A stretch of 64,000 nucleotides of DNA from Muricea muricata (Eukaryota; Cnidaria; Anthozoa; Malacalcyonacea; Plexauridae): assembly GCA_963855995.1 (NCBI GenBank), contig OY979720.1, forward strand, positions 4,528,501 through 4,592,500, written 5' to 3'. The notes under the pieces were generated by a model, which worked only from the letters and a program-made list of their open reading frames with translations, made no database searches and was not told where the DNA came from. A program made the translations under genes and the position numbers. Every line of letters starts with the position of its first letter. The first letter of the stretch is position 1. Positions 2,647 to 63,130 of the stretch are shown here, in pieces.

Positions 2647-5600
2647 ATGATGAATTATGGAATTTTTTTTGTGATCTGTATCTTGTTTTCAAGCGTACTC
2701 TATCTCGTCAACGCAGCCCACCACGATAATCAAGGATTGCGATGTAAAGGCAAGGCCTACTATACGTTGACGTTTCAAGCAGAATGGAGCAACGAGACGC
2801 ATCCATCACCAGTATTCCCGACAAACGCGATGTTTTCACCGCTTGTTGCGGCCACGCACAGTTCCGCGTACGAAATGTGGAGTAGAGGAAAGAGTGCTTC
2901 GCTTGGCGTTCAGCAAGTAGCCGAAACAGGTGAGACTTTACGGTACTTTTGCGAATTTACCTGAGCTCTTCGCCTAAGCTGTCTAGCCCTGTCTGCATGC
3001 CAGATACTTCCTTGTTGATAGTAACTTATGTAGACCCGTTTATCAATCATCGTGTCTTCCATTCAGTGCCAAAAAGAAACAGGTTGTGAAGTCCTTCATC
3101 AGGCAAATAATAATTTTTTGTCCTTAATTTTTCGTGCAGTTACAGATAGTACATGGACACTTGCGTTAAGTTAATTTACTCCTTAGCTCGCGTGGGTTTA
3201 GTTACGTAACTTTTTGAAGTTCATATTTAATACTTTAAAATAGACATTAGTGTATACTTAAAACACACAGAAATGATCCTAGTGTTGATTCAGACGAAAT
3301 TCAGTTTAAATTCAGTTTAGGCCAGTAAGCCAGTTAGATCTCATAGGACATAATGGGTCAATCCGTACAGTGCGTGGTAGACCTATATCTTTAACGTCAG
3401 TTCGTGCCCCAGGATAAGACGGTCTTGTACCTTTGTCCACTTGAGATCGTCGCTTAAGCCCATGCAGGAAATATGACTGTACTCTAAAACCACAAGCTCT
3501 AAAACTTTTGGTGAAAAAAGCGACCCAGTCTCATATTTACTGCTAAAAAATGTGGAATATATTTTCTAAATTTTCCTCAAAGGAAATTATATACTTAGTA
3601 TTCTGAACAGTACAGATCTTTTCAAGTTCCTCAGGTATTTAACCATAGCTGAGGTAACTAAATTTTGTGTAGTTAAAAAATATTTAAGAAAACAAAGACA
3701 GACGTTTTAGGGCTCATAATTGACATGGCGGTATTTATGTGTATCCGTTTTTTATCATGACGTGCGAGGGTTAATGATGCAAATTTTCCGTGTGATGGGT
3801 TTTAATTGTTGGCACTAAAAACGCAAATGAGATCATTTTGGTTGGCATTTACTTTGTTACGAGAAGATAATTACCGATAATTACCAACAACACACTCTAG
3901 GATAAAGTATCCTTATGTCATTCAAGTTCACCTAACAGTGAAGGGTCATTAACAACATTTCATTCGACTTCAACCAACAACTGAATAGATAATACACTTC
4001 CTTACTTTAGATTACCTTACTTTAGCTTAGCTTAGCTTAGCTTAGCTTAGCTTAGCTTAGCTCACCTTACCTCACCTCACCTCACCTTAACTTACCTTAA
4101 CTTACATTACCTTACTTTACCTTACTTTACCTTACTTCACCTTACATCACCTCACCTCACCTCACCTCACCTCACCTCACCTCACCTCACCTCACCTCAC
4201 CTCACCTCACCTCACCTCACCTCACCTCACCTCACCTCACCTCACCTCACCTCACCTCACCTCACCTCACCTCACCTCACCTCACCTCACCTCACCTCAC
4301 CTCACCTCACCTCACCTCACCTCACCTCACCTCACCTCACCTCACCTCACCTCACCTCACCTCACCTCACCTCACCTCACCTCACCTCACCTCACCTCAC
4401 CTCACCTCACCTCACCTCACCTCACCTCACCTCACCTCACCTCACCTCACCTCACCTCACCTCACCTCACCTCACCTCACCTCACCTCACCTCACCTCAC
4501 CTCACCTCACCTCACCTCACCTCACCTCACCTCACCTCACCTTCCTGGCCTTGCCTTGCCTTTTATTTTACTTGTATTTTTTATTTTAGGAAACGTTTCT
4601 ATCATTTACAAGGAGTTGTACCGCCAGCAACGCTATGGCAGCGTAAAATCACTCATCAAGTCTGATGGTCCAACCAGGACACCAGGAAACAGAACGTTAA
4701 TGGATCTTCATGTTGATGAAGATCGTTCATTAGTTTCTGTGATAACGATGATCTTCCCATCACCAGATTGGTTTCTGGGAGTTTCAAATGTTGATATGTG
4801 TGATCCAGTGACAGGTGAGTGGAGAGAAGAGTACAGTCGTGACTTGTTTCCCTACGATTCCGGTACTGATGATGGAACCTCGTTTGAAAGCCCAGATGCT
4901 TCTTCCGATCCCCGGGGAAACATAACTCTCATCAGTAAGAACGATGATACAAATTTCAAGACAGATTCTTCAATCAGACGTCTCGGCACCTTCAAGTTCA
5001 CCAAAGTTCCGACCAAGAAGTGCAAAGGAAAGGCTTATTACACTTTAACATTTAATGCGGAATGGAGCAACGAGACACATCCGTCTCCAGTATTCCCGAC
5101 GAACGCAATGTTTTCACCACTTATTGGAGCAACACACAACCTGTATTACGAAATGTGGCGTCGAGGAAAAATGGCATCGTCTGGAGTTCAACTTGTTGCT
5201 GAGACAGGTAGATATCTTTCTTGTTTTCTTTCTTCAAACAAAATCGTATTAACAAAATTAATTTTTCAGTATTATAATACTCTCTTATTCGTAGTATTTA
5301 AGTTGCCTCAAGGCCTTCAATGGCTAGTCAAGAAACATTTTCCAAAGATTATGTTTCACTTTTTTTACTGTACCTTCAAAAGTAATTTTGTGTTTTTAAA
5401 ATCAAATATTCAATATTTTTTGCGTTGTATCTCTTAGGAAATGTAAGTATTCTTGCTGAAGAACTCTATCGTCAAAAAAGGTATGGAACCGTCAAGTCAC
5501 TTATCAAAGGAAATGGTACCGTGGCAACTCCGGGAGACGAAACATTAATGGGTCTTCATGTTGATGAAGATCGTTCATTAGTTTCTGTGATAACGATGAT

Positions 5601-8600
5601 CTTCCCATCACCAGATTGGTTCGTGGGAGTTTCAAACGTTGATATGTGTGATCCAATGACAGGAGAGTGGAGAGAAGAGTATAATCGTGACTTGTTTCCC
5701 TACGATTCCGGCACTGATGATGGAACCTCGTTTGATAGCCCAGATGCTCCTACAATGCCTAAAAAGAATATCTTCCTGATTGGAAATGAAGATGATACCA
5801 ACTTCAAAAGTGATTCTTCAATCAGACGTCTCGGAACCTTCAAGTTCACCAAAGTTCCCACCAAGAAGTGCAAAGGAAAGGCTTATTACACATTAAAATT
5901 TAATGCGGAATGGAGCAACGAGACACATCCGTCGCCAGTATTCCCGACGAACGCAATGTTTTCACCACTTATTGGAGCAACACACAACCTGTATTACGAA
6001 ATGTGGCGTCGAGGAAAAATGGCATCGTCTGGAGTTCAACTTGTTGCTGAGACAGGTAGATATCTTTCTTGTTTTCTTTCTTCAAACAAAATCGTATTAA
6101 CCAAATTAATTTTTCAGTATTATAATACTCTCTTCTTCACAGCTTTTAAGTTGCCTCAAAGCCTTCAATGGCTAGTGAAGAAAATTTTTCCAAAGATTAT
6201 GTTTCACTTTTTTCTTTGTAGCTTGAAAAGTAATTTTTTGTTTTATGAAAAATGAAATATTCAATATCTATTACGTTGTATCTCTTAGGAAATGTAAGCA
6301 TTCTTGCTAAAGAACTCTACCGTCAAAAAAGGTATGGAACCGTCAAGTCACTTGTCAAAGGAAATGGTACCGTGGCAACTCCGGGAGACGAAACATTAAT
6401 GGGTCTTCATGTTGATGAAGATCGTTCATTAGTTTCTGTGATAACGATGATCTTCCCATCACCAGATTGGTTCGTGGGAGTTTCAAATGTTGATATGTGT
6501 GATCCAATGACAGGAGAGTGGAGAGAAGAGTACAGTCGTGACTTGTTTCCCTACGATTCCGGCACTGATGATGGAACTTCGTTTGATAGCCCAGATGCTC
6601 CTACAATGCCTAAAAAGAATATCTTCCTGATTGGAAATGAAGATGATACCAACTTCAAAAGTGATTCTTCAATCAGACGTCTCGGAACCTTCAAGTTCAC
6701 CAAAGTTCCAACCAAGAAGTGCAAAGGAAAGGCTTATTACACTTTAACATTTAATGCGGAATGGAGCAACGAGACACATCCGTCGCCAGTATTCCCGACG
6801 AACGCAATGTTTTCACCACTTATTGGAGCAACACACAACCTGTATTACGAAATGTGGCGTCGAGGAAAAATGGCATCGTCTGGAGTTCAACTTGTTGCTG
6901 AGACAGGTAGATATCTTTCTTGTTTTCTTTCTTCAAACAAAATCGTATTAACCAAATTAATTTTTCAGTATTATAATACTCTCTTCTTCACAGCTTTTAA
7001 GTTGCCTCAAAGCCTTCAATGGCTAGTGAAGAAAATTTTTCCAAAGATTATGTTTCACTTTTTTCTTTGTAGCTTGAAAAGTAATTTTTTGTTTTATGAA
7101 AAATGAAATATTCAATATCTATTACGTTGTATCTCTTAGGAAATGTAAGCATTCTTGCTAAAGAACTCTACCGTCAAAAAAGGTATGGAACCGTCAAGTC
7201 ACTTGTCAAAGGAAATGGTACCGTGGCAACTCCGGGAGACGAAACATTAATGGGTCTTCATGTTGATGAAGATCGTTCATTAGTTTCTGTGATAACGATG
7301 ATCTTCCCATCACCAGATTGGTTCGTGGGAGTTTCAAATGTTGATATGTGTGATCCAATGACAGGAGAGTGGAGAGAAGAGTATAATCGTAACTTGTTTC
7401 CCTACGATTCCGGCACTGATGATGGAACCTCGTTTGATAGCCCAGATGCTCCTACAATGCCTAAAAAGAATATCTTCCTGATTGGAAATGAAGATGATAC
7501 CAACTTCAAAAGTGATTCTTCAATCAGACGTCTCGGAACCTTCAAGTTCACCAAAGTTCCAACCAAGAAGTGCAAAGGAAAGGCTTATTACACTTTAACA
7601 TTTAATGCGGAATGGAGCAACGAGACACATCCGTCGCCAGTATTCCCGACGAACGCAATGTTTTCACCACTTATTGGAGCAACACACAACCTGTATTACG
7701 AAATGTGGCGTCGAGGAAAAATGGCATCGTCTGGAGTTCAACTTGTTGCTGAGACAGGTAGATATCTTTCTTGTTTTCTTTCTTCAAACAAAATCGTATT
7801 AACCAAATTAATTTTTCAGTATTATGATACTCTCTTCTTCACAGCTTTTAAGTTGCCTCAAAGCCTTCAATCGCTAGTGAAGAAAATTTTTCTAAAGATT
7901 ATGTTTCACTTTTTTCTCTGTAGCTTGAAAAGTAATTTTTTGTTTTATGAAAAATGAAATATTCAATATCTATTACGTTGTATCTCTTAGGAAATGTAAG
8001 TATTCTTGCTAAAGAACTCTACCGTCAAAAAAGGTATGGAACCGTCAAGTCACTTATCAAAGGAAATGGTACCGTGGCAACTCCGGGAGACGAAACATTA
8101 ATGGGTCTTCATGTTGATGAAGATCGTTCATTAGTTTCTGTGATAACGATGATCTTCCCATCACCAGATTGGTTCCTGGGAGTTTCAAATGTTGATATGT
8201 GTGATCCAATGACAGGAGAGTGGAGAGAAGAGTATAATCGTGACTTGTTTCCTTACGATTCCGGCACTGATGATGGAACCTCGTTTGATAGCCCAGATTC
8301 TCCCACGATACCTAAAAAGAATATTTTCCTGATCAGAAATGAGGATGATACGAACTTTGAAAGTGATTCTGAAATTGAACGTCTCGGCACCTTCAAGTTC
8401 AGCAAAGTTCCAACTAAGAAGTGCAAAGGAAAGGCTTATTACACTTTAGCATTTAATGCGGAATGGAGCAACGAGACACATCCGTCGCCGGTATTCCCGA
8501 CGAACGCAATGTTTTCGCCAGTTATTGGAGCAACACACAACCTGTATTACGAAATGTGGCGTCGAGGAAAAATGGCCTCAACTTCTATACGGCATGTTGC

Positions 8601-10923
8601 TGAAACAGGTATGGGTCACATTTCTCGCTTTTTTAATTTGGAAAACACTTCGAGTGATTACGACCTTAAATTCCTTATACAATTCCTCTACAAACTTTCA
8701 GGCAATGCGGCTAATAGAGATGCTTGAAATGTTTCCCAGAATATGTAACGAGAATCTGGAATTTCTGATTTTTCTTAGGTTAGAAGTATGAGCTAAAAAC
8801 CTTATATTAACACCAAATCCTGGGTTCTCTCTTTTAAATTGCGTTAGTCGCACAAACTGTTTGACATCGAAAATTCTGGTATTTTTGTCTGGCGTTCTCG
8901 AAAGCTAAATCAAGCATCTTGAAAACTGAACTTCTGTTATGATCTTTTTTAGGCCTTTCTAAACTTTGAGTTGTTTCTTATATTAACAGTATTGAGTATT
9001 GTCTCCTTATTGTTCAGTCCTCATTGTTCACTCAAAAAATTTCATCATTTTTTAGTTTCTTGTTTCATCTTTCTTGATTTTCCTATGTTTGTCTTATGCC
9101 TTTATCTTTTTACTTGCAGTCCTCAGCCTTTCTTGTTAATATAACTTTTCCTGCTGTTCTTTTTTATTCGTGCATCTTCTTTGGTTTTCTATCATTTTTC
9201 CATCACATCTTTCCTTTATGCTACCTTCGATCGTTCCAGTCAATTATTGCTTGCTTAATTCTTGCCAGAATATCAAATAGTTCTCGATGTAAATAGTTGT
9301 TTTTAATGCGGCTATTATTTCTACATTTCTTGCTTTCTGTCATATTTTTATGTTGGGAAGATTGAAATAAAATTTAAAAACGTAATAACAAAATTATTTT
9401 AGTAATTCTTCTAATACAAAGTTAATAAGAATGCATTTCCTTTGAAATTTGTAGGGAGTGAATGTCTACTGGTGGGAGAAATACAGAAACAGAAACGATA
9501 TGGAAACGCCTACTCCCTCATAAAAGCTGATGGTTCCACTATGACACCAGGACGAAGAGTATTCTCTAACATTCACGTTGACGAAGATCGTTCGCTAGTT
9601 TCCTTGATAACCATGATCTTTCCGTCACCAGATTGGTTCCTAGGAGTTTCAAATGTTGATATGTGTGATCCAATGACAGGAGAGTGGAGAGAAGAGTATG
9701 ATCGGGACTTGTTTCCCTACGATTCCGGCACTGATGATGGAACTTCGTTTGAAAGCCCCGACGCTCCTACAATGCCTAAAAAGAATATCTTCCTGATTGG
9801 AAATGAAGATGATACCAACTTCAAAAGTGATTCTTCAATCAGACGTCTCGGAACCTTCAAGTTCACCAAAGTTCCAACCAAGAAGTGCAAAGGAAAGGCT
9901 TATTACACTTTAACATTTAATGCGGAATGGAGCAACGAGACACATCCGTCGCCAGTATTCCCGACCAACGCAATGTTTTCACCACTTATTGGAGCAACAC
10001 ACAACCTGTATTACGAAATGTGGCGTCGAGGAAAAATGGCATCGCCTGGAGTTCAACTTGTTGCTGAGACAGGTACTCTATTGTTCTTTAATATACAATG
10101 CGTCCCAGAAGTAATTTCATTAAGAAAGAAAATCAATTTTTATAAAAAAAAAGACGAAAGATTAGATGAGACAAAAAGCGGTCGATGTTCAGTGTTATTT
10201 CGGTAAATATCAGCTGGTTTCCTTTGGATACGACGGCGAAATGCGGAATTTTATCTGTGCTTCGAATCATAAAGTGTTCAGTTCATTGAAAATGCTTCTT
10301 ACATAAAATGAAAAAATCAAACTTGAGGCTTATGCAAATCAAAAGAATTCTGTATTACATATTTTTACTTAAACATGATTGTTTAATTTCTAACAGGTAA
10401 TGTTACGATTCTTAACAATGAGATTTATCGCCAAGAGAAATATGGCAATGTATTGTCCCGATTCAGGGCCACAGGAGCAACGAAGACGCCAGGAATGACT
10501 AAATTTGACAAAATTCTGGTCAATGAAACTCATTCGCTGATTTCACTGGTCACCATGATTTTCCCCTCTCCTGATTGGTTCCTTGGTATTTCAAGTATGG
10601 ACATGTGTAACAAAGTCACAGGAGAATGGCGAGAGAGCTATACCAGAGATTTGTTGCCTTACGATTCTGGAACAGATGATGGAACCTCATTTGAAAGTCC
10701 AAACTCGGTCACAAAACCAAGAAAGAATATTTTCTTAATTGGTAAAGGAGACAAAACGAACTTCAAGAGCGACTCTGATATAAGGCGTCTGGGTGTCTTA
10801 GTGATGCAGAGATTTGAAGAAAAAGAAGTTGATATTGTTAATAATAACAGTGCTGCGTCCACCTTCATGATAAGTTCTATTCTTGTTGCATTTACTACTA
10901 CTATATTTACTGTTATTATTTAA
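2647..10923 (+). CDS. Poly-Spondin_N secreted or surface protein, seven tandem domains
   Basis: Coding exons: 2647-2929, 4590-5207, 5438-6055, 6289-6906, 7140-7757, 7991-8608, 9455-10072 and 10397-10923. They join in phase 1 and give 4518 bp, about 1505 aa. Residues 1-24 are a signal peptide ending near VNAA. Seven Spondin_N domains follow, starting near residues 33, 239, 445, 651, 857, 1063 and 1269, at an exact 206-aa period. Each has a front half from C-K/G-K-AYYTL to AETG and a back half carrying the family motif PSPDWF-x-G, then a Cys and PYDSGTDDG. In F-spondin and mindin this domain is a calcium-binding beta-sandwich found once per protein. The C-terminus (SAASTFM, then about 20 hydrophobic residues) fits a GPI-anchor signal or a membrane tail. 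Every internal exon runs from mid-domain to mid-domain. Exons 3-5 are almost identical. The ligand and function are unknown. Identification of the domain is firm; transcript structure is inferred from splice sites. Confidence 0.9.
4001..4540 (+). repeat. Pentanucleotide minisatellite, (CTCAC)n with (CTTAG)n edge
   Basis: From 4151 to 4540 the sequence is an uninterrupted CTCAC pentamer, about 78 copies. Upstream, from about 4001, are degenerate related pentamers (TTAGC, CTTAC and CTCAC variants). The array fills the 3' part of intron 1 of the poly-Spondin_N gene and stops 49 bp before the exon 2 acceptor. Confidence 0.98.
5438..7990 (+). repeat. Three tandem 851-bp exon-plus-intron units
   Basis: Acceptors lie at 5438, 6289, 7140 and 7991, an exact 851-bp spacing. 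Each unit holds one 618-bp exon and a 233-bp intron, and the three copies differ at only a handful of bases even in the intron. This is a very recent in-gene tandem amplification, or strong homogenisation. The flanking intron 2 (230 bp) is a more diverged relative. Confidence 0.95.
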
Positions 10924-33600: not shown

Positions 33601-36600
33601 GGGTTGAGAGGGGCAAACGCAAGAAGATGGAAAATTACAGCCATAAAACTGTAAGATGTGTTTGCCATATAGTATTTTATCATTTATAGACTCGGACCTT
33701 GGACCGAGGGGAATTGAATAAAATATTCCCCCTAAAATTTGAAGATTAATGGACTAATCACGCGGTACAAATTAAAGTGTCTGGCCTATTTCAAATGGAG
33801 CAATAATATTATCATTAGTAACATGCCTTGTTACTCCAGTTCCACTTGCAATTGCTCCCTAGTTAACACAACAAAATTAGGAATATTCTGTTTCAAATTT
33901 TTTGTAGAAGCAAAATGAAAAGAACTCGCAGATTGACAGGTTTGACACCTTAAATTTTCACGGTAAAACAACATATGTAGGTCATATACTATTGTATATC
34001 CTACAATGTGATTAGCTCTTTCGTGGGATATTAGCGCATGATTTTTTGAGAACTGTATTTATATTGTTTGTGTCGTCGTAGGCGAGTATACTCACCGCTA
34101 GCGTTTATTCTTCTGCTAGTTACGAAGATCTTATGTTTGGCTCTGATGAAGAAGATGGTGATAATGATGACACATCTTTTGCAACGGGAAAGGTGATGTA
34201 GTTAATTTTATGAAACTTTAGTGAAGATATTTGGCTATAACTGATGAGATTTTAGGAGAGTCGCAGAGATATTAAATTTAATTCATTTCCCAGGATCACA
34301 AAAAGAGTCCTCTTTCTAAAGCTTTCATCCGTGAGAACGAACCTGATGAACCTCTGGATTTACTCAGTTCAAGTATTTCTCAGCATGTTACTGGTGTGTA
34401 TATTGTTGTTCTTGTATGAGTGTTGTTTGTTGTTGTTGTTGTTGTTTATTGTTGTTGTTGTTTGTTGTTGATTGTGGTGATGGTGCATGGTAGAAGTGGC
34501 GGTGATGCTTATGTTGTTAACAGTCTCTAAACAGTCTCTGTTCTTGTGGTTGTTGCTGTTGTCAGCGTTTGCTGAGTGGGTCTGAAGTGGAGTAATGAGT
34601 AGGCTCAGAAGGAACACGCCGATGTACTTATTGGTTCTTTTCGCAGGAACAAAATATTAAAGTTATTATGAAACAACGCTGCTATATATTATTACTATAT
34701 GTTATATATCTTGTAGCAACTGCGCCAGTCCAAAAGCGTGCAAGAGATTCCGGATTTGAAGTAGCTGATGATGGTCGTTTGGTTATAACCGAAGAAGAAG
34801 GCAATTCAAAGAAATCAGAAAAAGCTTCTGGTATGTGAAGTTAAGAATGTTATTAATTGAAAAGGTTTCTTTTCTATGGATTTTTGCCTGGCGAGTAATG
34901 CGCCTAGGACGCCCTTCTTGATAAAATCCAGTAATCTGGTCATACATGTACAATAATTGTTTTAACGTAAATTTACACTAGGTTTGTCAATATTGAGCGA
35001 AAACACAGAAATGGAGCTCTCACTTAAGGTAAATTTTAGATATTTTTTATTTAATAATGATGACGAGCAACAGAATATTACGTAACAATGATCTTATATT
35101 ATTGACTAATCAGTGACTTATATTATTGACTAATAGACGTATCAGGTTCATGTTGGTGGTTGACCTGTCTGTTGACCAGCGTCCCTTAAAGTTTTGTCAT
35201 GCGCACGTCTCCTCGACATGCAAAGATCGTGACGATTCGTGCGACAAAACTTGCACTGATAGGGCGCATTTTTTGGACCGAGTTTACGATTCGGAGTGTG
35301 ATTACTTGAGTCTTGTACCAAATTGTTTTGCTGATCTTTTTCCTGCCTATTTGTCTCATCTTTCGGTAGTACGTGATATTGCTCTAAGACCGTTCTTGTT
35401 TTAAACAACATTCGCACACGTAAGCATCGTAATGCGAGGTACAATCTCCGTACGGCATAAAATACCATGGTGACAGCTGTTGCGATACAAATTGGTCCAA
35501 CTAGAGTAGTTGCTATCCCGGCAAAAGTTACAGCTAAAACGGTACCCTGAAGTAGTATAAACGCTGAACCCAGAACCAATGAAATATAGAGGACAATGCT
35601 TGTGAGGATAGTTATCGGTAGCGATCCGAGGAATAATATCGTACCCAGAAATAGACTGGTCTTGGGGCGGTTGGCGATGAACTGTGTAGCGCGTTGTTTT
35701 GCTTGCCACATTGTCGCTAGAAGATTAACGTTTCTGTTTTGAACTAGATTAAAGTTATAAACTAAAATAAATTACCGTAGAATATTTTTATAAAAGACAA
35801 AGCTATTGAAACTCCTTAATTTGTCAGCATTTTTATTCTACAGACTATATGGTTCGATATGTAATACAAGTCATCTACTGAAGTTATTCTACTCGTGTTA
35901 TTATTCTACTAAAGATGACTTGTGTTACATGTCGAAACGTGGAGAATATAATGTTGACAAACTAGATTCACATTAATCTGACACTGAAGAGAACAACGAA
36001 AAATTCGTTTCTCGAGCGGGATTCGAGCTCGCATCTTCGTGTTTCTAGGCCGCCGCGCTACCAATTGAGCTACCGAGCCAACTGGGATTGGTAGCGAGTC
36101 TTATCTATTTAAGTGCACGAAATATTTTCGTGACGACTTGACGCTTGTCTTTGAGGCCGTGCAGTGTTTTAATTCTATTTCAAATAGAAATAAAATATTG
36201 ACAATGTAGAGAGTTTCAATGGTTTTGTGTCGCGACTATATTGACTAATTTTCAGGATAAAATATAATGCAATATCTGGTTAATATTGGATTAATATCAT
36301 TAACCGTCTTACTCGTACTGAAAATATTAAACAGAAATTTTTTAAACCAAATTTGTCAATAAACATTGTTTAAAAAAGGCATTTTAATGATACCTACCGT
36401 TAACGGTTTGCTCGTATCGTGTTATGACATGTCCTTCTCAAGCAGTCTTACTTTTTCAGTTTTCCCCCCTATTGTACATATTTAAAGCAACAAAAACCTG
36501 AAAATCTGAAATAGTCAGTCTCTAGAGAGGTCATCCACCATTTTATTACGTCATGTAATTACTTTCGTGACTGCACGTACGCTTGCGGCTGAGGCATCTT

Positions 36601-42100: not shown

Positions 42101-44170
42101 GCATCAACATCAAATCAAGATCTTTTGTCTAAACCTAGCATGGCGAGCAATACTTCCGTGGCATTTCAAGGCCCAGCAGGAGTTACCATGCAACCTGTGG
42201 TAGGCAAATACTTTAAATGATAGACATGACTGCAGTTCTTGTTTTGTAACAGGAAAGAGTGTTATGCTGGCATTCAGGAAAATCTTAGACAAGATTTATT
42301 ATGAGAATCTTTATTAAAGCTTGACGGTCAGTTGTAGAAAAAGTGGATAGCTTTATCCACCAGGTAGTGATTTTTTAAAAAAATTTGACACATGTTCATT
42401 AACTGGTAAAACTTATATTATATTTTGAGTTGAAGTCACTTGTTACCTCTTGCAAGTTCAATATCCCTGGTGTTATTCCATTTTATGCACTTTAGTGGCA
42501 GTTTAAAAAAATCACTATCCGATGGATAGCACTATCTGCCTTTTATACAACCGACCCCAGAAAACTATCTCACATGCTTTGGTTTTCAGCGGGGTTCTGA
42601 CTTAATAATTTGCGTTTAAAAAGAACCCAAAACCTACTGGACAGTAGATTGAACATAAGTAGATAAAAATACACAATTGAAAAAGTTTGATTTAAATATT
42701 TCTTAAGTGATTCTGAGCAATTTTTATGCCATGATAATTCACCATAAGTTTGTCATTATTGGATGGTTGTTAAAGGAACAATTATCGGCCGTGTGGCAAA
42801 TTTTAAACAGAGTTTTCTGTTCAATCCATCAGTCAAGTTCCAGGCACTTTGTATGGAAGTACCATGGACATAACTGTAAATTTTTGTTTCTTGTCAAGGG
42901 TATGTCTGCTTCTATGCAACCCATGATGCCGGCATCGAACATGTCACCTATGATGATGGCTAACACAACAGTGATGAGTAATAGTTCAACGATAACTGGA
43001 GGTCAAATGATGGGAGGTACATCTATGATGGCAGGCAACATAGGTGTTGGATCCATGGTGGGAGGTGTACCAACATTAGCTGGTGGAAATCCTGCAATGG
43101 GCGGCACTCCAACAATGGGTGGAACTCCCACGATGGGTGGAACACCAACAATGGGGGGAGCATCCACTATGGTTGGGCAACCTATCATGGGTGGAACACC
43201 AATGATGGGTGGGGCAACTACCATGGTTGGGCAGCCTATGATGGGTGGCGCTGGAATAATGGGTGGTGGCTCTCCTAATATGATGAGTGGTGGAATGACA
43301 ATGGCTCCATCACCTATGATGGGGAATATGATGTCATCGCAACAAGGTATGATGTCGTCACAACAAGGCATGATGTCATCTCAACAAGGCATGATGTCAA
43401 CACAGTTGACAGCTAATGTTCCCAAGTCGTCAAGTGGGAATAGCAAGAGTCAACAACAGGTATGTAGAAGGTGCTTGGTTTTTTATAAAATAAGGTACAG
43501 GCAGGGCCTGCATGGCTTAATTCTTGGCACAAGGCACTTAATATAGAGGTTTACATATTAATACATTTATTATGTATACAATCTCTTCAAACATTCTTTC
43601 CTAGATAACTTTTTTCAATTACAATTAGTTGTGCAAGCCCTGGGTCCATTATCAAGATTTAGGTGAAATGTTTCCAGAATTCTCTGTCTTTGTGGAGTGA
43701 TTTTTTCTGTGATGAACCAAAAGATGGATGAGAATAATGCTGATGAATTATGGTAATGATTATGATTATTTTATGCTTTCCAGGTGTCAAGTGCAACATC
43801 GAAGACAACAACATGGTCAAACAGTGGTGGTGTAGATATTAGTCTTGACAACTTGGCTCCAATCTCCCCAAAGGAAAAACCTCATCAACCCAGCATGAAC
43901 CAGCTTTACATGCAGAACACGATGCCAACACAAATGTCTTCACCAGGCATGAGTTACTATGGAAATACTGGTATGCAACCTATGTACACTGGAAATCAAA
44001 TGGGGATGTCTATGAACATGATGGGTAATGGCATTGCGCAAATGAACATTTCCACTCCTCCTGGAATGGTCAACAGAGGAATGATGTCACAGGGGGGTGC
44101 GGTCAATATGCAGCAACCTGGCATGGTTGGTGCTAATCAAAATTTTGGCAGAGTTATGCAATACAAGTAA
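39177..44170 (+). CDS. CLINT1: Clathrin interactor 1 (epsinR), ENTH-domain adaptor
   Basis: Coding exons: 39177-39208, 39327-39525, 39643-39781, 40705-40842, 41037-41193, 41647-42199, 42899-43459 and 43784-44170; 2166 bp, about 721 aa. Residues 1-~150 are an ENTH domain with near-invariant family blocks (MNYSEVESKVREATNDD, NWRRVYKSLLLL, RNGSERVVTSAR, DEHGRDQGINIR). The family binds PtdIns4P and works with clathrin, AP-1 and SNAREs at the trans-Golgi and endosomes. The middle part has adaptor and clathrin peptides: VDLFSS, DFADF (two similar copies) and DADLFHDF. The C-terminal part retains a TWSNS...ISLDNL block typical of CLINT1. Exon 7 carries Met/Gly-rich tandem repeats that make the protein longer than the ~625-aa human one. 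The start at 39177 matches the MWK-x-RE start of the family. Confidence 0.95.
42322..42558. mobile_element. Diverged MITE related to 33065-33211
   Basis: The left end gacggtcagttgtagaaaaa and the right end ttttatacaaccgacccc are imperfect inverted repeats matching the GGTTGTATAAAA termini at 33065. The inner gtggatagc/gctatcc blocks also pair. It lies in CLINT1 intron 6. Confidence 0.65.
43097..43398 (+). repeat. In-frame coding repeats in CLINT1 exon 7
   Basis: At 43097-43270 there are repeated MGGTPT or MGGAxT units, and at 43329-43398 three to four copies of MMSSQQG. Both are in the CLINT1 reading frame and have low-complexity nucleotide sequence prone to length change. Confidence 0.85.
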
Positions 44171-46832: not shown

Positions 46833-48762
46833 TCACAAAAAGTACTTTACAATAATAGCAAAGACCACATAGAAAAAGCCATGTTGTTTCAGAGAACATG
46901 CCGCACTAGTTGGGGTAGTTGTTGTCTGGGTGCTTGCTGACGCGGTTAATGTGCTTGTTGGGTCTGGTGTTTGATTTGGGACGTTGGGTGTTGTACTAGG
47001 GATGCTTTTCGTGTTCAGTTTTTGTGTAGAACTTTCTTTTGTTATACTCGTGGTATAACTTTCAATGATGACATTTGTGCTTGGTTGGATTCCAACACTT
47101 GAAGATGGATTTATACTCGGTTTCGATTCATGGGTCTTTTCAAACGTAAGTGTCCCAAATCTCTTCAGAGGTTTATCGGTTTTAAGTGAGCCTTCTGTGT
47201 TATTTGTTATTAGTTCGATATCTTCAGATGGATTTGTTAGTTTATCAAGGCTAGTGAAGTCAGTTCCACTGTCAGTGCCCGCATCATAAAGTGGCAAATC
47301 TCTTCCTCTCGAGTCTTCCCATTCTCCTGTTGTCGTGTTGCATAAGTCGAAGTCGTGCACACCAACGAACCAGTCAGGTGAGGGTGCGATCATGGTAATA
47401 AAGGACACAAGGGGAAATTCTGAATTGACTTCGATGTTAGTTATGCTACTAGTTCCAGTAGGTGAGATGAAAGAGTTGCTACCCTCGTATTTATTGAAGG
47501 CTTTTTTGTTACTTATCTGAGCATCCATCTCGCTGTTAAGCGCTCCTGTTTGACCTGAAAAATAAACCAGTGTATATCCGCTCAGCCAAAAGCATCCTTC
47601 GGGGGTGAAGCTGGTGGGTTATTTAGGAGGGGGGGGGGCAAAATTTTCGTGTTTTCAAATCAACCTTATTTTAGTCTTGGGGGCAGATTGTTGCATTTAG
47701 ATCAGCGGCTACATTAGAATGCGACAGAGCGCAACTTCATGTAAAAACCAGCAGTGAAAACGCCTGATAACTACCTTGAGACTACTATCGGGACTACCTT
47801 GAGAGGTGGTCTTTATGGGTTCGAAGTTTAGACCAATCTGTCTCTTTGTTTAGCACGCTATTAGTAGCTTTCAGGTAGTTCCTCGATAAACGCCTTGAGA
47901 CAGAGGGAAATACATAAATTATTTTCTTTAATGTACTTTAGATGTGGTTGCCCCGTTATTCATGTTGACGCATACAACCGTCTGTTTTAGTGTAATGTAG
48001 ATCGTTGCTACATAAGAGTCTTTAAATGCGGTAAAATTTAAGAGCGATAACAAAGACGTAGATACGAGGTTGGCATGATTACTGTGTTGGATTTTGGGTA
48101 TAATGCTAAATTGCTAATTCAAACAGGAGAACTTTCATTTAGGCGACTCGATAACAAACGGTATAACGGTCCACTTTCGCTCTAGATTCCTTCCACGTCG
48201 TTGAAAGTAAGTGTGTCTAGGTGGCAACAAAACGTCTGGATCATGCTGCTCCGTTTTGAACACGACCAAACCAATTACACACGTTAACTATATATTCATT
48301 TTGAAGCTTGTATTATGTATATTGTATTTAAATAGTATTGTTTGTCGTATTATATCATATTGGTATGAAGCAGCAGTTCCAGCTATCAAGTATATAGCGC
48401 CTATATGTTGTCAATCGCTATGCTTCTGGAAATACAAAGGCCCATTCAAATTATGAAATTATTAAAGAAAAGCAATTATTCATACCCCTTTCTGCCACAT
48501 CTTTAACTCCTGTGGTCGCCTTAATTCCTGGTGCCCACATCACATAGTCAGCTTTATGACTACAACCTACGACTGCTGAGAAATGAGGTCCGGATACGCT
48601 TGGAAAATCAGGATGACTTTGGCTTGTCCATTCCGCTTGAAACTTTAAGATATATTTCGCTGTTCCTTGGCATTGAATAGCTTGAGTAAACGCCACTGTA
48701 CTTACGAGACACACCACGCTATACCACAATACGAAGGCTGACATCTTTAAACTGGGTTTCAC
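46833..48762 (-). CDS. Single-domain Spondin_N surface protein 1
   Basis: Coding exons 48762-48486 and 47554-46833 join in phase 1 for 999 bp, about 332 aa. The signal peptide ends near VAFTQA. The front half of the domain runs IQCQGTAKYILKFQAEW to AERG, and the back half has APSPDWFVGV, a Cys and LPLYDAGTDSGTDF. A Ser/Thr/Pro-rich mucin-like stalk of about 70 residues follows, then a C-terminal hydrophobic stretch (FFYVVFAIIVKYFL) that fits a GPI-anchor signal. The intron position is identical to that in all other Spondin_N genes here. A Met at residue 7 is an alternative start matching the neighbouring gene's start. Confidence 0.88.
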
Positions 48763-51376: not shown

Positions 51377-52873
51377 TTAACGATACATGTTGAAGATGCA
51401 CATCATTAGGACAAGAATCACATTTAAGTTTATGCTTTGGTTAGCTGTGCCTGTCGGAGTTGTTCTTGTCGGAGTTGTTCTTGTCGGAGTTGTTCTTGTC
51501 GGAGTTGTTCTTGTCGGAGTTGTTCTTCTCAAGGATGCCCTTGTCGAAGTTGGCGTAGATCCGGTGATCGACCGAGATGTCGAGATTGACACAGATAATG
51601 ACGTCATCGTTGCATTGCTTTCTGATGTTTTCTCAAAGGTGAACGTGCCAAACCTTTTCAGAGGTTTATCGCTTTTAAGTGAGCCTTCTGTGTTGTTTGT
51701 AAGTAGTTCGATATCTTCAGGTGGATTTGTTACTTTATCAGGGCTAGTGAAGTCAGTTCCACTGTCAGTGCCCGCATCATAAAGTGGCAAATCTCTTCTT
51801 CTCGAATCTTCCCATTCTCCTGTTGTCGTGTTGCATAAGTCGAAGTCGTGTACACCAACGAACCAGTCAGGTGAGGGTGCGATCATGGTAATAAAGGACA
51901 CAAGCGGAAATTCTGAATTGACTTCGATGTTAGCTATGCTACTAGTTCCAGTTGGTGAGATGGAAAAGCTGCTACCCTCGTACTTCTTAAAGGCTTTTTT
52001 CTTACTTATCTGAGTGTCCATCTCGCTGTTAAGTGCGTTTGTCGTACCTCAAAAACAAACCAGTGTACATCCGTTTAGGTGACGTTATTAAAATATAGAT
52101 ATTGTGAGTGTGTCATGTATTGTTACACAATATTCAACATTTGAAAAACCTGAACTGATAGAAACGGACTATTAATTTCTGGACGAATGGGTTATGATGG
52201 GACTTCGCTAGAAAGGTCCTATGTTTTTTGTGATTTTCATTGCACTACTAACGCCAACTGGCCACGTTATTTCGAGATATTATCAAGTATACTTTTCAGG
52301 CTCACACAGACCGAACGCGATTGGCCAACGCGACGCGATTTTTCGATTTTTAAAAGCAAATAAAACCATCAACAAAAAGAAATTTGGTTAGATGTGTGCA
52401 CTAAATAGCTTAAATTGCTGATGTCCTTCCGACGATTGGAGAAAAATAAAAAAGGATTAAAGTTAAAGGACGTTGAAAATGGAAAATTCGCGTCACGCTG
52501 TCAAATCGCGTCCTGTCTGTCTCGACCTTTAGCCTATGTCATTTGACAGCGCTGCGCGTCCATAAACAACAAATTAAGATATTCGTGTAAATAGGGAAAA
52601 TTGATTATCCATACCCCTTTCTGCCACATCTTTAACTCCTGTAGTCGCCTTAATTCCGGGTTTCCACATCACATAGTCAGCTTTATGACTACACCCTACG
52701 AGAACAGAGAAATGAGGTCCGGATCCGCTTGGAAAACCAGGATGACTTTGGCTTGTCCATTCCGCTTGAAACTTTAAGGTATATTTCGCCGTTCCCTGAC
52801 ATTGAATAGCTTGAGTAAACGCTACTGTACTTACGAGACACACCACGCTATACCACAATACAAAGGTTGACAT
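51377..52873 (-). CDS. Single-domain Spondin_N surface protein 2, TTPTR stalk
   Basis: Coding exons 52873-52615 and 52047-51377 (phase 1) give 930 bp, about 309 aa. The signal peptide and domain are very close to those of Spondin_N gene 1 (VSTVAFTQAIQCQGTAKY; APSPDWFVGV; LPLYDAGTDSGTDF). The domain is followed by a stalk with five tandem T-T-P-T-R units and a hydrophobic tail (NVILVLMMCIF) fitting a GPI signal. The intron carries the MITE at 52298-52529. Genes 1 and 2 are recent duplicates that differ mainly in the stalk. Confidence 0.88.
51451..51528. repeat. 15-bp coding minisatellite (TTPTR units)
   Basis: Five nearly identical 15-bp units (gtcggagttgttctt on the plus strand) encode Thr-Thr-Pro-Thr-Arg repeats on the minus strand in the stalk of Spondin_N gene 2. 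The related fragment at 58561-58773 has a single unit, so the array expanded after duplication. Confidence 0.9.
52298..52529. mobile_element. MITE with ACAGACCG-ACGCGATT ends
   Basis: The left end (aggctcacacagaccgaacg) and right end (cgtcctgtctgtctcgacct) are imperfect inverted repeats, each next to GCGATT or AATCGC. About 232 bp, in the intron of Spondin_N gene 2. A partial copy lies at 15561-15720. Confidence 0.7.
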
Positions 52874-54095: not shown

Positions 54096-56484
54096 TTAAT
54101 AAAAGAGAATGTTCATAATGCATAAGATCATGCAAGCAGTTATACTGAAGCTTTTGCCCAGATTAGCCGTGCCTGTCGGGTTTGCTGGTGGTAACGTCAC
54201 CCTAATGCCATTTTCCGACGTCTTCACGAAGGTAAACGTTCCAAATCTCTTGATGGCTTCGTCTCCTTTGAGTGAGCCTTCAATGTCTTTTGTCAGACGG
54301 TGAATATTCTCCTGGGGAGTAGTAGGCTGATTATCAGGATCACTCACAAATGTTTTCCCGTCGTCAGTCCCAGAATCGTATGGAAACAAATCTCTCTTTA
54401 CTGAGTCTTGCCATTTTCCTGTTGTCGTGTCACATAAATTTAAATCACGCACACCAAGAAACCAATCTGGTGAGGGAGCTATCATGGTAATGAATGATAC
54501 CAGAGGATATTCAGAGGTGACTGCGATATTAGAGATGGAATCACTTGCTGTTCCGCCGAAGATCAACTTTCCTTGGTATCTTATAGAAGCATTCTTTGCC
54601 GTTATTTGAGCGTCCATTTCACTGTTTATTGTCCCCGTGTTGCCTAAAAATTAATATAGTTGTGTTTAGCCTAGACTTGTTTGTACCTTTTCTTATGTAC
54701 TGTGTACAACCAGCCTGAAACAATTCATAATTTGGCCATGTACAAGTAAAATTGTCATAGCCGGAAGAAAATTGGAAGACGGAGACGCGAAAAAACATCT
54801 TGATTATTGTTCGTGTCTCGCTAAATTTTGATATTGAGCCCTTAACAATAGCGTGAACTTTGGCAATCCTCTGACCAATATTCAAATAGTGGTAACATGG
54901 CTTCGCTGTATCAAAGTTTTTGTGATCATTGTCAAAATTTTACATATGGAAAATAAAAGTCAGAAATCTTTTCGAAACTAAATCGGCGATTAATTTAAAT
55001 ACTCGATCAGTCAGTTTCTCGAAGAAAAACATACAAACTCTTTAAACCACTCCAAACTAAAAAAAAAACAACAACAAAAAAATGCAGTTAAGTGTACGTG
55101 CATCGACATAAGCACAAGCATAAAACCCCGTACTGACGAGCAAGTTTTCCTTGACAATTAAGTTTCTTGCCGAGTTCATTTACGCGTCTGTACGACTGAC
55201 AAGTTTTCCTTGACAGGCTTTTTTAGTTCCTGCATGTGTGCGAAAATTATGCTTGTGCATGATCCTTGTTGAAAAGCTTTTAAACCAGGTTCCTTGTCAA
55301 GGAAAAAAATGTCAAGGAAAACTTGCTCGTCTGCACGGGGCTTAAGACTACGAGCATAAGCTGTGGTAGACCAAAGCAAATTCAAAAGAAAATTCTTTCT
55401 GCTTTGTCCTCGTAAGCCTCTGGAAAACAGACTACGTACGCGAATCTATACAGTTTTGTATAATAATCATTCTGGATTTTTATTGGTCGAGAACTGTGAT
55501 CAATACAGACGCACGCTGACGCCATTTCAGCGACAAGCGAATCGGCGAATCACAACAATTTTAGAATTATCGACAGCCAATGGCGTGCTTTGTTTTGTAT
55601 AGATCATCACACATCAAATGGCGTGCTAAAGTCTTTTTGTCGCGCTACAAAGTTTATTTTGGAAAAATTTTTCATATTTTTATTATATAAAACAAATAGA
55701 TAACATTTTGCCGTTGTTTGTTTAGTTATAGATACACGGTAGACGTCATAATGTGGTAAGAACATCAGTGACCCACTCGCCTAGGCGGCTCGTGGGCCAC
55801 TTTTTTGTTCTTACCACTCTATGACGTCATACCGTGTATCTATAACTGAACAGACAACGGAAAAATATTATCTATTTGTTAAATAATATGACCAATTTAA
55901 ATACCGACCACAAAAGAAAAGCTAAGTGCAGAGCATTCCACATCGTCGAATAGTGGGAGTGACTTTGCTACGACAGTTGCGTAACATTTATTGATTTACC
56001 CAAACTATTTTACCTATGCCACCTCCTTCTGTGTCGATGGAAACTTGACATTATAATATAGAGTCAGTTAAGATCACAGAAATCATCTCAATACGATACA
56101 TTGATAAGGCGTTAGAAGTGCTTAATACGCTAGCTAACAAGCAAACTTCATTTCAGCTATATAATTATACGGTCGTGTTTTAAGTTTTAAATCAACATAA
56201 ATGCCTTCAAAATATACTGAACTATTCATACCACTTTCTGCCACAGCCTCAACTCCTGGACTGGCTTTTGTCCCTGGTGCCCACATGACATAGGCAGCTT
56301 TATGACTACAACCGACGAGCGGTGAAAAATGAGGGTTTGAAGGGAAGTCTTTGTGCGTCTGATTTGTCCATTCTCCTTGGAATGTGAGCGTGTATTTTGC
56401 AGTACCGTTGCATGACTTGGCAGCTTGTGTAGTATACACGAACAAAACAGCTGTAAACACAAGCTTTGGCAAACAGTTATACAT
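54096..56484 (-). CDS. Single-domain Spondin_N surface protein 3
   Basis: Coding exons 56484-56232 and 54643-54096 (phase 1) give 801 bp, about 266 aa. The signal peptide ends near VYTTQA. The domain runs from KSCNGTAKYTLTFQGEW to AESG, then APSPDWFLGV, a Cys and LFPYDSGTDDGKTF. There is a very short linker (PPANPTGTANLG) and a hydrophobic end (SITACMILCIMNILFY) fitting a GPI signal. It lacks the long stalk of genes 1 and 2. The 1.6-kb intron holds two MITE-like repeats (55105-55362, 55689-55880). Confidence 0.88.
55105..55362. mobile_element. MITE with ~50-bp inverted ends
   Basis: The left end (acataagcacaagc, then ccccgtactgacgagcaag and ttttccttgaca) is inverted at the right end (tgtcaaggaaaacttgctcg, then cacggggc and gagcataagc). 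Extra copies of the caagttttccttgaca motif lie inside, near 55199. About 258 bp, non-coding, in the intron of Spondin_N gene 3. Confidence 0.8.
55689..55880. mobile_element. 192-bp foldback element
   Basis: Arms from 55689 (aacaaatagataa) and to 55880 (ttatctatttgtt) pair through gttatagatacacgg, gacgtcat and gtggtaagaac, about 75-85 bp each. The centre is GC-rich with a gcctaggc palindrome. It is in the intron of Spondin_N gene 3. Confidence 0.85.
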
Positions 56485-59212: not shown

Positions 59213-60926
59213 TTAATAAAAGAGAATGTTCATAATGCATAAAATCATGCAAGCAGTTATACTGAAGCTTTTGCCCAGATTAGCCGTGCCAGTCGGGTTT
59301 GTTGGTGGTATCGTCACCATAATGCCATTTTCTGAGGTCTTCACGAAGGTAAACGTTCCAAAGCTCTTGATGGCTTCGTCTCCTTTAAGTGAACCTTCAA
59401 TGCCTTTTGTCAGACGGTGAATATTCCCCTGGGGATTCGTGATCACGTTAGAACTCTCAAAGTTAGTGCCGTTATCAGTACCAGCATCGTAGGGAAACAA
59501 GACTCTTACTACTCTGTCTTGCCATTTTCCCGTTGTCGTGTCACATAAGTTTAAATCACGCACACCAAGAAACCAATCTGGTGAGGGAGCTATCATGAGA
59601 ATGAATGATACCAGAGGATATTCAGAGGTGACTGCGATATCAGAGACAGAATTATTTGCTCTCCCGCCGAAGATCAACTTTCCTTGGTATTTGATGGAAG
59701 CATTCTTCGCTGCTATTTGAGCGTTTATTTCACTGTTTATTGTTCTTGTGCTACCTAAAAATAATATACTTCTGTTTAGCTTTATCTTAACTTCTTTCTC
59801 ACTTCAACAAAAATTTAACTTCATAGTCTGGTGTTTGAAAAACGTAAAATTGCAGTAGTTGGCAGTTGAGGGGTTGAGATACAGTGAAGGAAATGTCAGG
59901 AATGCGAGACAGGACCGACAAACGATATGCGGCTTGCTCCCAGCATCACTGATTGTAAGAAAAAGGTATCAGCAGAATTCATTGTCTACCATCCTTGACA
60001 TCCTTATCAGTGCAATTTTTTGACACAAGTTAAATGCTGTTGGTAAATTTGGAGTTCGTACATTGGTCAAGGCTTTGTAGCGGTTTAATGGTGTGTCATT
60101 ATTTTATTACTCGGATATAAAGTAAAAGTACAAGAAAAAGTCAGGTTTAAATATTTAAATCTGAAATGTTTTTGTAGAAATTTTGCATGGTAAATTAAAT
60201 ATGCTGCAATTAAACTTTGACAGTCATGGTGCCACAACCAGCCTTAATCCTGTGATAACACGGAAGTAGTGCATGAGATTAAGATATGCAGTGTGTATAT
60301 TTATATCGGGAATATAAAATAAAAAGGTGGCACATTTAACACAACAGCTGTATTTATTTTCACTAGTGAAGATATGAGAAAATATGAAACCGCGGGATTT
60401 ATATGTTGTCTGTTAGTTTGTTCCGAATTCTGACCATATCCATGTTTTCACCTCTCGAAAATAATATTTATATCTTTGCGTAATATCCTCTATGTATATG
60501 GTACCTAAGATATGCTTTTTAAACGGCTAAACGCTTGGTACAGCGTCAGAAATGTTCGAAAGAGTCCACCTTATATCAACAATATGGTCGTGTTTTCAAC
60601 TGTGTTTAGTCCATGTTTTGGCCTTTACTTTAGTCCAAAATTATTTTGACCTAATATACTGAACTATTCATACCAGTTTCTGCCACATTCTTAACTCCTG
60701 GACTGGCTTTTGTCCCTGGTGCCCACATCACGTAGGCAGCTTTATGACTACAACCGACGAGCGGTGAGAAATGAGGATTTGAAGGGAAATCTTTGTGCCT
60801 CTGACTTGTCCATTCTCCTTGGAATGTGATCGTATATTTTGCAGTACCGTTGCATGACTTGGCAGCTTGTGCAGAATACACGAACAAAACAGCTGTAAAC
60901 ACAAGCTTTAGCAAACAGTTATACAT
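59213..60926 (-). CDS. Single-domain Spondin_N surface protein 4
   Basis: Coding exons 60926-60674 and 59754-59213 (phase 1) give 795 bp, about 264 aa. It is nearly identical to Spondin_N gene 3 in signal peptide (TAVLFVYSAQAA), domain and hydrophobic tail. The back half has IAPSPDWFLGV, a Cys and LFPYDAGTDNGTNF. Gene 3 differs mainly between the PYD motif and the HRLTK block. The intron (59755-60673) shows no repeat I recognise. Confidence 0.88.
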
Positions 60927-62005: not shown

Positions 62006-63130
62006 ATGTTTAAACTTCAAGATGTTCTATGTCTGTTTATTGTCTTTTTTCAATGTGTTTCTCTCGCGAGAAGCGTACCATGTAGAGGATCAGCGTCCTA
62101 TAAGCTGCAATTTCAAGCGGAATGGGGAAATTCATCTGGTATACAACGGCCAAATGGGGCTCAATTTTCAGGCCTAATCGGCTGCAGTCACAATAAATGC
62201 TACCGAATGTGGAGACCGGGCTCAAAAGCATCGCTTGGGGTGAAAAATGTTGCTGAGAAAGGTTCGTGTTTCAATGTCAGTGTGTATTAAATATAAACTG
62301 ACTTAAGTTTGTTATTACGATTTGGTTCTATATTGTTAGTTTATAGACATGCATCAGTAAAGTTTAAGAATTTTCATATCATTTATGCAATTTGATAGAT
62401 AACAATTAATTTGACAGATGTAACAATTAGCTTTTGCTGGCCTTGAAAAGCAAATGATTGACATGCAGGAGCGTACATACACACATTTTGGAAGCTGCTT
62501 TCTTTGATGAATTAAAAGTAATGGTGTTATTCTTTGCTAGGGGATGACACAGAACTTTACAAAGTGATCCAGAAACACTTTGACACATGGAAAACTGTGT
62601 TGGAAAGACTCCAATCAAAGAATAACACCATTGGTCCTGAAGATCACATTGCACTGCCAGAAACTATTGATAATGATAAACATAAGGGTGGCTTCAGGGT
62701 AGACAGTTCCCATCCACTGGTATCCATCATTGCTAGAATAATACCCTCTCCAGATTGGTTTATTGGTGTGCATGATGTCAGTTTGTGTAATAACTCAGGG
62801 TATTGGATTGACGAGAAAGTTATTCCTCTCTTTCCCTATGATGCTGGCACTGCTCAAAAGTCTGCGGACAATGATTCTAATGTTGTACCGACAAGCCCAC
62901 CTAAGAACATTGATCGAGCACAAGAAGTCATCAGTGATCCTCTTAGAGGAATAGGTTATATGAGATTTTATTTGCTTGCAAAATTTGACTCTGGTTCACC
63001 TGTTGTGGCCATTGATGAAGAGAATTGCCCTAATCTGGCCTCAGTAAGAGAAGTCTCTTTGTTAATGTGGTTTGTCGCAATTGCAACAATAGATCTTATT
63101 TTTAGCAATATGCAATTTGGGACATTGTAA
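62006..63130 (+). CDS. Divergent single-domain Spondin_N surface protein 5
   Basis: Coding exons 62006-62261 and 62541-63130 (phase 1) give 846 bp, about 281 aa. The signal peptide ends near VSLARS. The front half runs VPCRGSASYKLQFQAEW to AEKG with a GCSHNKCYRMW block. The back half has IPSPDWFIGVHDVSLC and FPYDAGT, but the usual TDDG after PYDAGT is replaced by AQKSADND. The C-terminal ~25 residues are hydrophobic (LLMWFVAIATIDLIF). It is the most diverged member and the only single-domain copy on the plus strand. The intron position is the same as in the others. Confidence 0.87.

Follow-up and report, generated by a model that had tools for sequence, protein, structure and literature searches.

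A gene for seven successive Spondin_N domains

Spondin_N is known chiefly as one module of proteins that act in the matrix, in axon guidance and in innate immunity. We analyzed a 64,000-nucleotide stretch of the genome of the octocoral Muricea muricata (assembly GCA_963855995.1, contig OY979720.1, positions 4,528,501 to 4,592,500 of the forward strand; hereafter the window), in which a gene at 2647-10923 (+), termed the array gene, encodes one chain with seven Spondin_N domains in direct succession. Eight exons are separated by seven introns, every one of which has GT-AG borders and lies in phase 1, and the spliced frame specifies a protein of 1505 amino acids (aa) with no internal stop, a predicted mass of 169 kDa and an isoelectric point (pI) of 5.7. 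The domains start at aa 33, 239, 445, 651, 857, 1063 and 1269, a spacing of 206 aa in all six intervals, and the Pfam family PF06468 (Spondin_N) matches the protein in seven stretches at 1139 bits against a curated cut-off of 24. The Pfam scan returned neither a reelin nor a thrombospondin domain, leaving Spondin_N alone; a DDAH line (26 bits, no stretches) was taken as spurious. An earlier note on this DNA had placed a 1505-aa chain at exactly these coordinates, with seven Spondin_N domains at a 206-aa period, a signal peptide and a hydrophobic C-terminus, and each element of that architecture was recovered here.

The signal peptide is encoded in exon 1 only (2647-2929), together with the N-half of domain 1 (Spondin_N profile positions 1-59), and a stop codon lies immediately upstream of the first ATG of the array gene (open reading frame beginning at 2635). 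Each of the six internal exons is exactly 618 bp long and joins the C-half of one domain to the N-half of the next: exon 2 (4590-5207) links domains 1 and 2, exon 3 (5438-6055) domains 2 and 3, exon 4 (6289-6906) domains 3 and 4, exon 5 (7140-7757) domains 4 and 5, exon 6 (7991-8608) domains 5 and 6, and exon 7 (9455-10072) domains 6 and 7, all on the forward strand. Exon 8 (10397-10923, +) supplies the C-half of domain 7 and is the only exon with a stop and hydrophobic tail, which resembles a glycosylphosphatidylinositol (GPI) signal. Read past its donor, each of exons 1-7 meets a stop within 32-227 nt. One transcript per exon was rejected on the single signal peptide, the single stop and the phase 1 shared by every intron, and MKYSISITLYLL, a hydrophobic run that precedes exons 4-6 and is an intron 3' end read in frame, was not taken as a start. 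Intron 1 contains about 96 copies of a CTCAC repeat at 4061..4542 (+), preceded by related TTAGC-type repeats (region 4000-4562).

Structural context for the intron positions came from P0137, a two-domain homologue 39% identical to two array domains, which was modelled at a predicted local distance difference test score (pLDDT) of 82 and whose best solved match is the F-spondin-type (FS) domain of mindin (3D34; TM score 0.91 over the target). Mapped on this model, each intron interrupts a domain between two helices that follow strand 2. Because the cut point and the phase are the same in every domain, gain, loss or skipping of an internal exon would alter the number of domains and still leave every domain whole, a design that explains how such an array could grow or shrink without damage. 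One exon module, consisting of two half-domains, reached a pLDDT of 45 when modelled alone from an alignment of 14 rows, which hints that the composite exon is not itself a folding unit.

The array domains appear mindin-like, their best solved match being mindin 3D34 at 116.8 bits, followed by F-spondin 3Q13 at 104.6 bits. Mindin (spondin-2) consists of one FS domain and one thrombospondin type 1 repeat; the array shares its FS fold and sequence, and it differs in having seven FS domains, a membrane-type tail, no LEV triplet and no thrombospondin repeat. With seven FS domains and no such repeat the array protein is not a mindin, although it may be mindin-like in action. Six of its seven domains have two cysteines each, at positions 1 and 133, and domain 6 has a third at position 66; the mindin FS domain likewise has only C1 and C4 (PMC3117680, cited here, like all papers below, from excerpts), and each array domain probably holds one disulfide. 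F-spondin (spondin-1, 3Q13) shares with the array the PSPDW and D[AS]GTD calcium motifs of the FS domain, and is set apart by six FS cysteines, of which the array lacks 2, 3, 5 and 6, and by a reelin domain and thrombospondin repeats, both missing from the array. As calcium is held in human F-spondin by the Asp of PSPDW and the two Asp of DAGTD (PMC3117680), and PSPDW and DSGTD are kept in seven of seven array domains, these too may be calcium-binding.

The C-terminus of the array protein (VNNNSAASTFMISSILVAFTTTIFTVII) satisfies a simple GPI rule, with SAA at aa 1482 and a 14-residue tail. The rule is home-made, requiring a signal peptide, an omega site, a spacer and an uncharged hydrophobic C-terminus, and stands in for a trained predictor. 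It selects four of the five modelled single-domain neighbors described below, versus 12 of 312 other fetched proteins; among seven chosen cnidarian-type proteins P0129, P0161, P0156, P0137 and P0172 pass, and P0174 and P0173 fail. Judged from these tails, the array protein would be secreted and kept on the outside of the cell membrane, with a GPI anchor as its most probable tether. The surface location suggested in the earlier note thus gains support from the GPI-like C-terminus here and in most of the modelled neighbors, within the reach of our own rule.

Repeat history and relatives

Exons 3-5 belong to three 851-bp exon-plus-intron units (5438-7990, +) that are 98.5-99.1% identical. The first two units show 11 differences in the exon and none in the intron; introns 3 and 4 are identical, and exons 3-5 differ pairwise at 4-11 positions. 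A 242-bp probe found six places in the genome, all within the array gene. The ratio of nonsynonymous to synonymous substitution rates (dN/dS) is 0.16-0.35 in 15 of 15 internal-exon pairs, calculated with no correction for gene conversion and, for one pair, from only 2 + 2 changes; these values indicate that the repeats are kept as protein by purifying selection, and a pseudogene was rejected on them.

In block-wise comparison the array domains are mosaics. Residues 64-108 fall into four types that are 42-73% identical, and synonymous differences in this block are 0.59-0.84 in all comparisons among domains 1, 2, 6 and 7. Most other stretches of the internal exons are far closer, with synonymous values of 0.00-0.29 for domain 2 versus domain 6, for example; strong divergence is the exception and is seen in exon 1 (N-half of domain 1), in exon 8 (C-half of domain 7) and in domain 1 at residues 163-178. 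The proportion of nonsynonymous differences (pN) never exceeds that of synonymous differences (pS) in 40 block comparisons, which gives no sign of positive selection. For the variable block in particular, positive selection was considered and rejected since pN lies below pS there, short blocks being rough and values above 1 arising in the smallest. Unequal crossing-over together with gene conversion is the best account of both the near-identical units and the mosaics. We propose that the ancestor would have been a two-exon, single-domain, membrane-tailed gene resembling those downstream, that a 618-bp phase-1 composite exon arose when the C-half exon of one copy joined the N-half exon of the copy that followed, and that this exon would then have multiplied in tandem and been partly homogenized by gene conversion.

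A search of the M. muricata assembly itself (453 Mb, 74 contigs) for Spondin_N gave 32 exon-level matches, distributed over the array gene, downstream loci and genes on contigs C3, C1 and C6. The region 36-54 kb downstream of the array gene contains six single-domain loci, and five of them could be modelled with two exons and a GT-AG intron in phase 1, as in the array. On the reverse strand are S1 (46833..48744; exons 48486-48744 and 46833-47554), with the same phase-1 intron, S2 (51377..52873; exons 52615-52873 and 51377-52047), S3 (54096..56484; exons 56232-56484 and 54096-54643) and S4 (59213..60926; exons 60674-60926 and 59213-59754); the diverged relative S5 (62006..63130; exons 62006-62261 and 62541-63130) is on the forward strand. 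At the sixth locus (L010 619-1161, C5 about 4593113) only a C-half exon was found, with no N-half motif between it and S5, and this locus may represent a broken copy or a last exon used alternatively by S5. Among named organisms, Dendronephthya and Paramuricea, both octocorals, supply the nearest relatives of the neighboring genes. Single-domain Spondin_N genes also occur on C3 and C1, and the gene on C6 has other exon borders. The 13 matches of a Reeler search were confined to C3 and C15; with no match on C6, the label "F-spondin-like" for the C6 gene is a reading of its letters. On C3 the Reeler exon matches include two groups, at 34.24-34.31 Mb and 47.42-47.56 Mb, suggestive of tandem Reeler genes. 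Near 122.85 Mb on C1 (L012 3-2618, -) a single Spondin_N domain is followed by very long Ser/Thr-rich repeats (NQPSTSMNYDRSTVMDGPLAISASPSTV type) that resemble a mucin stalk.

Three protein searches, with length windows of ~828-2634, 244-777 and 1560-4963 aa, listed 319 different proteins; in each, ~8000 candidates sharing most words were scored and the best 120 listed. The SPDW motif is absent from three of the 319 and occurs once in 274, twice in 36, three times in four, four times in one and eight times in one. Pfam, run on 18 of them, assigned eight Spondin_N domains to P0241, four to P0001 (Corticium candelabrum) and P0242, three to P0122, P0123, P0134 (Oscarella lobularis) and P0136, two to P0129, P0133, P0144, P0156, P0164, P0002 and P0003, and one to P0006, P0018 and P0048, with two half-domains in P0121. 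Among the matches listed, animal homologues with two to four Spondin_N domains come from sponges and other cnidarians, and no other protein has seven in direct succession. Repetition of Spondin_N is therefore not new, as other chains contain two to eight copies; seven in succession with no other domain, on exons whose number sets that of the domains, is a new variant within the reach of our searches, and the longest uninterrupted array among the matches listed. The contrast drawn in the earlier note with a domain present in one copy is valid for the textbook members and fails for the homologues with two to four copies and for the bacterial-looking protein with eight. The note had also asked whether proteins with more than two copies are common and already characterized: chains with three, four and eight are present in the databases, and we found no characterized one. 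A sponge skeletal protein has been described with two spondin domains (PMC4633127), and in the excerpts of open-licence literature consulted we met no description of the seven-domain array and at most two Spondin_N domains per protein.

The closest parallels differ from the array in instructive ways. P0129 of the octocoral Dendronephthya gigantea (621 aa) shares with it repeated Spondin_N, a signal peptide and a GPI-like tail, but has only two domains and a linker rich in Ser and Thr, and its domains group together. The sponge proteins P0001 (four domains) and P0134 (three) also place several Spondin_N domains in one chain, at 30-35% identity; P0001 adds TIL, pacifastin and VWC domains, and neither passed the GPI rule. 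P0241 (3704 aa, bacterial-looking, on a contig of 824,660 bases) contains its eight domains in one chain at 28% identity to the array, from which it departs by a lipoprotein-like start and long spacers between domains, both read from its letters. It looks like a parallel multiplication of Spondin_N.

Nine of the listed proteins (P0121, P0124-P0128 and P0130-P0132; 244-324 aa) are built around the same composite exon, and look like open frames rather than whole genes. Eight of the nine span the whole module, seven at the array module length and P0131 one residue longer, and P0127 starts six residues inside it. P0121, P0124 and P0127 are 97-100% like an array unit in the variable block, and none of the three occurs exactly in the window, as would fit a different assembly or individual; the remaining six share 69-82% identity with exon 5. 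In P0132 the block is closest to that of domain 6 (60% versus 42-47% for the others), a hint that the block types are old. The cluster of P0121 has 38 member sequences and that of P0127 four, counts of uncertain meaning, and longer arrays elsewhere are possible. In a tree of C-halves only (43 rows), with 18 of 40 inner branches shown open and several of the long ones uncertain, the seven array domains and the nine frames form one group at 94/85, just below the tool's star, and the two domains of P0129 pair up among single-domain genes, which suggests a separate duplication. Module pattern scans of genome-contig and viral-contig collections gave 32 and 2 matches, none of them confirmed.

Function of the array

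We tentatively favor a membrane-tethered, multivalent mindin-like protein of recognition or adhesion, at somewhat short of even odds. With short linkers, one molecule would present seven copies of a binding surface and would bind repetitive targets by avidity, candidate targets being sugars on microbial surfaces, which mindin is reported to bind, or polyanions of the matrix or cell surface. Mindin is described as integrin-binding and pattern-recognizing (PMC3117680), and spondin 2 is counted among the domains of octocoral skeletal proteins that are associated with immunity (PMC11959691). Of the multivalent surface adhesin put forward in the earlier note, the architecture is confirmed and the surface location strengthened, and adhesion itself stays a proposal, beside which the ligand trap and the matrix protein of that note are further candidates. 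Several points weigh against our reading. Neither LEV, the integrin-binding triplet of mammalian mindins, nor RGD occurs in the 1505 aa of the array protein; neighbor S5 and the octocoral protein P0174 fail the GPI rule, and the GPI call depends on a rule of our own making; the dN/dS values have the limits given above; and the spondin papers cited concern other proteins, those on skeletal proteomes fitting a skeletal role equally well.

Such a role, in which a calcium-loaded, acidic, glycosylated repeat protein would organize sclerite mineral or matrix in the skeleton or mesoglea of octocorals, is the most serious competitor, though we consider it unlikely. It accords with the seven putative calcium sites, the pI of 5.7 and the 21 N-glycosylation sequons, with spondin 2 in octocoral skeletal proteins (PMC11959691), with spondin-2 in the Stylophora skeletal matrix and a spondin-2-like protein enriched in coral settlers (PMC12960093), and with the two-spondin-domain protein of the sponge skeletal proteome (PMC4633127). 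A membrane-type tail in the array and most modelled neighbors argues otherwise, the array is only mildly acidic (185 D+E versus 164 K+R), and its protein is named in none of these papers as excerpted. Still less probable, in our estimate, is a receptor for self/non-self or microbes in which a constant scaffold carries the four-type block at residues 64-108 and copy number varies between colonies. The divergence of the block types beside homogenized sequence, 851-bp units so alike that the array could lengthen or shorten, the clusters of P0121 and P0127, and three outside frames close to array units with none identical would all suit it; yet pN never rises above pS, the cluster counts are ambiguous, the array was read in one genome, and the block differences may be old and have merely escaped conversion. 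We give marginally less credence again to its stronger form, a length-variable array driven by gene conversion, with a constant calcium-binding scaffold and with colonies differing in the types and numbers of their helix-strand blocks, that would serve at the surface as a combinatorial receptor of microbes or self.

We regard an artefact, in which exons of several transcripts were joined or units 3-5 were misassembled and the true protein has fewer domains, as very improbable. The identity of these units and of introns 3 and 4 could point that way, but the gene has a single signal peptide and a single stop, its seven introns all lie in phase 1, exons 3-5 are not identical, and further records contain the same composite exon. 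Domains 1, 2, 6 and 7 are moreover clearly distinct from one another, so that an array would remain even if units 3-5 were misassembled. The probability left over from the four readings is assigned to other functions. Seven domains in a row, probably tethered to the membrane, would show Spondin_N serving alone as a polymer, and should the array bind microbes or matrix it would offer a simple case of an early-branching animal gaining avidity through duplicated exons, with the adjacent single-domain relatives available for comparison.

Other features of the window and genome

Elsewhere in the window, an open frame at 35148-35771 (-) matches Pfam Promethin at 32 bits, and one at 42707-43546 (+) contains Met/Gly-rich repeats (MGGTPTMGG type) and had no Pfam match. 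Its mitochondrial contig marks the host as an octocoral, since a mitochondrial MutS that ends in an endonuclease domain characterizes octocorals and is absent in hexacorals (PMC3166940, excerpt). Contig C74 (19,292 bp) of the assembly carries mitochondrial-type genes together with a 985-aa MutS homologue, its gene labels and HNH-like end being read from the letters.

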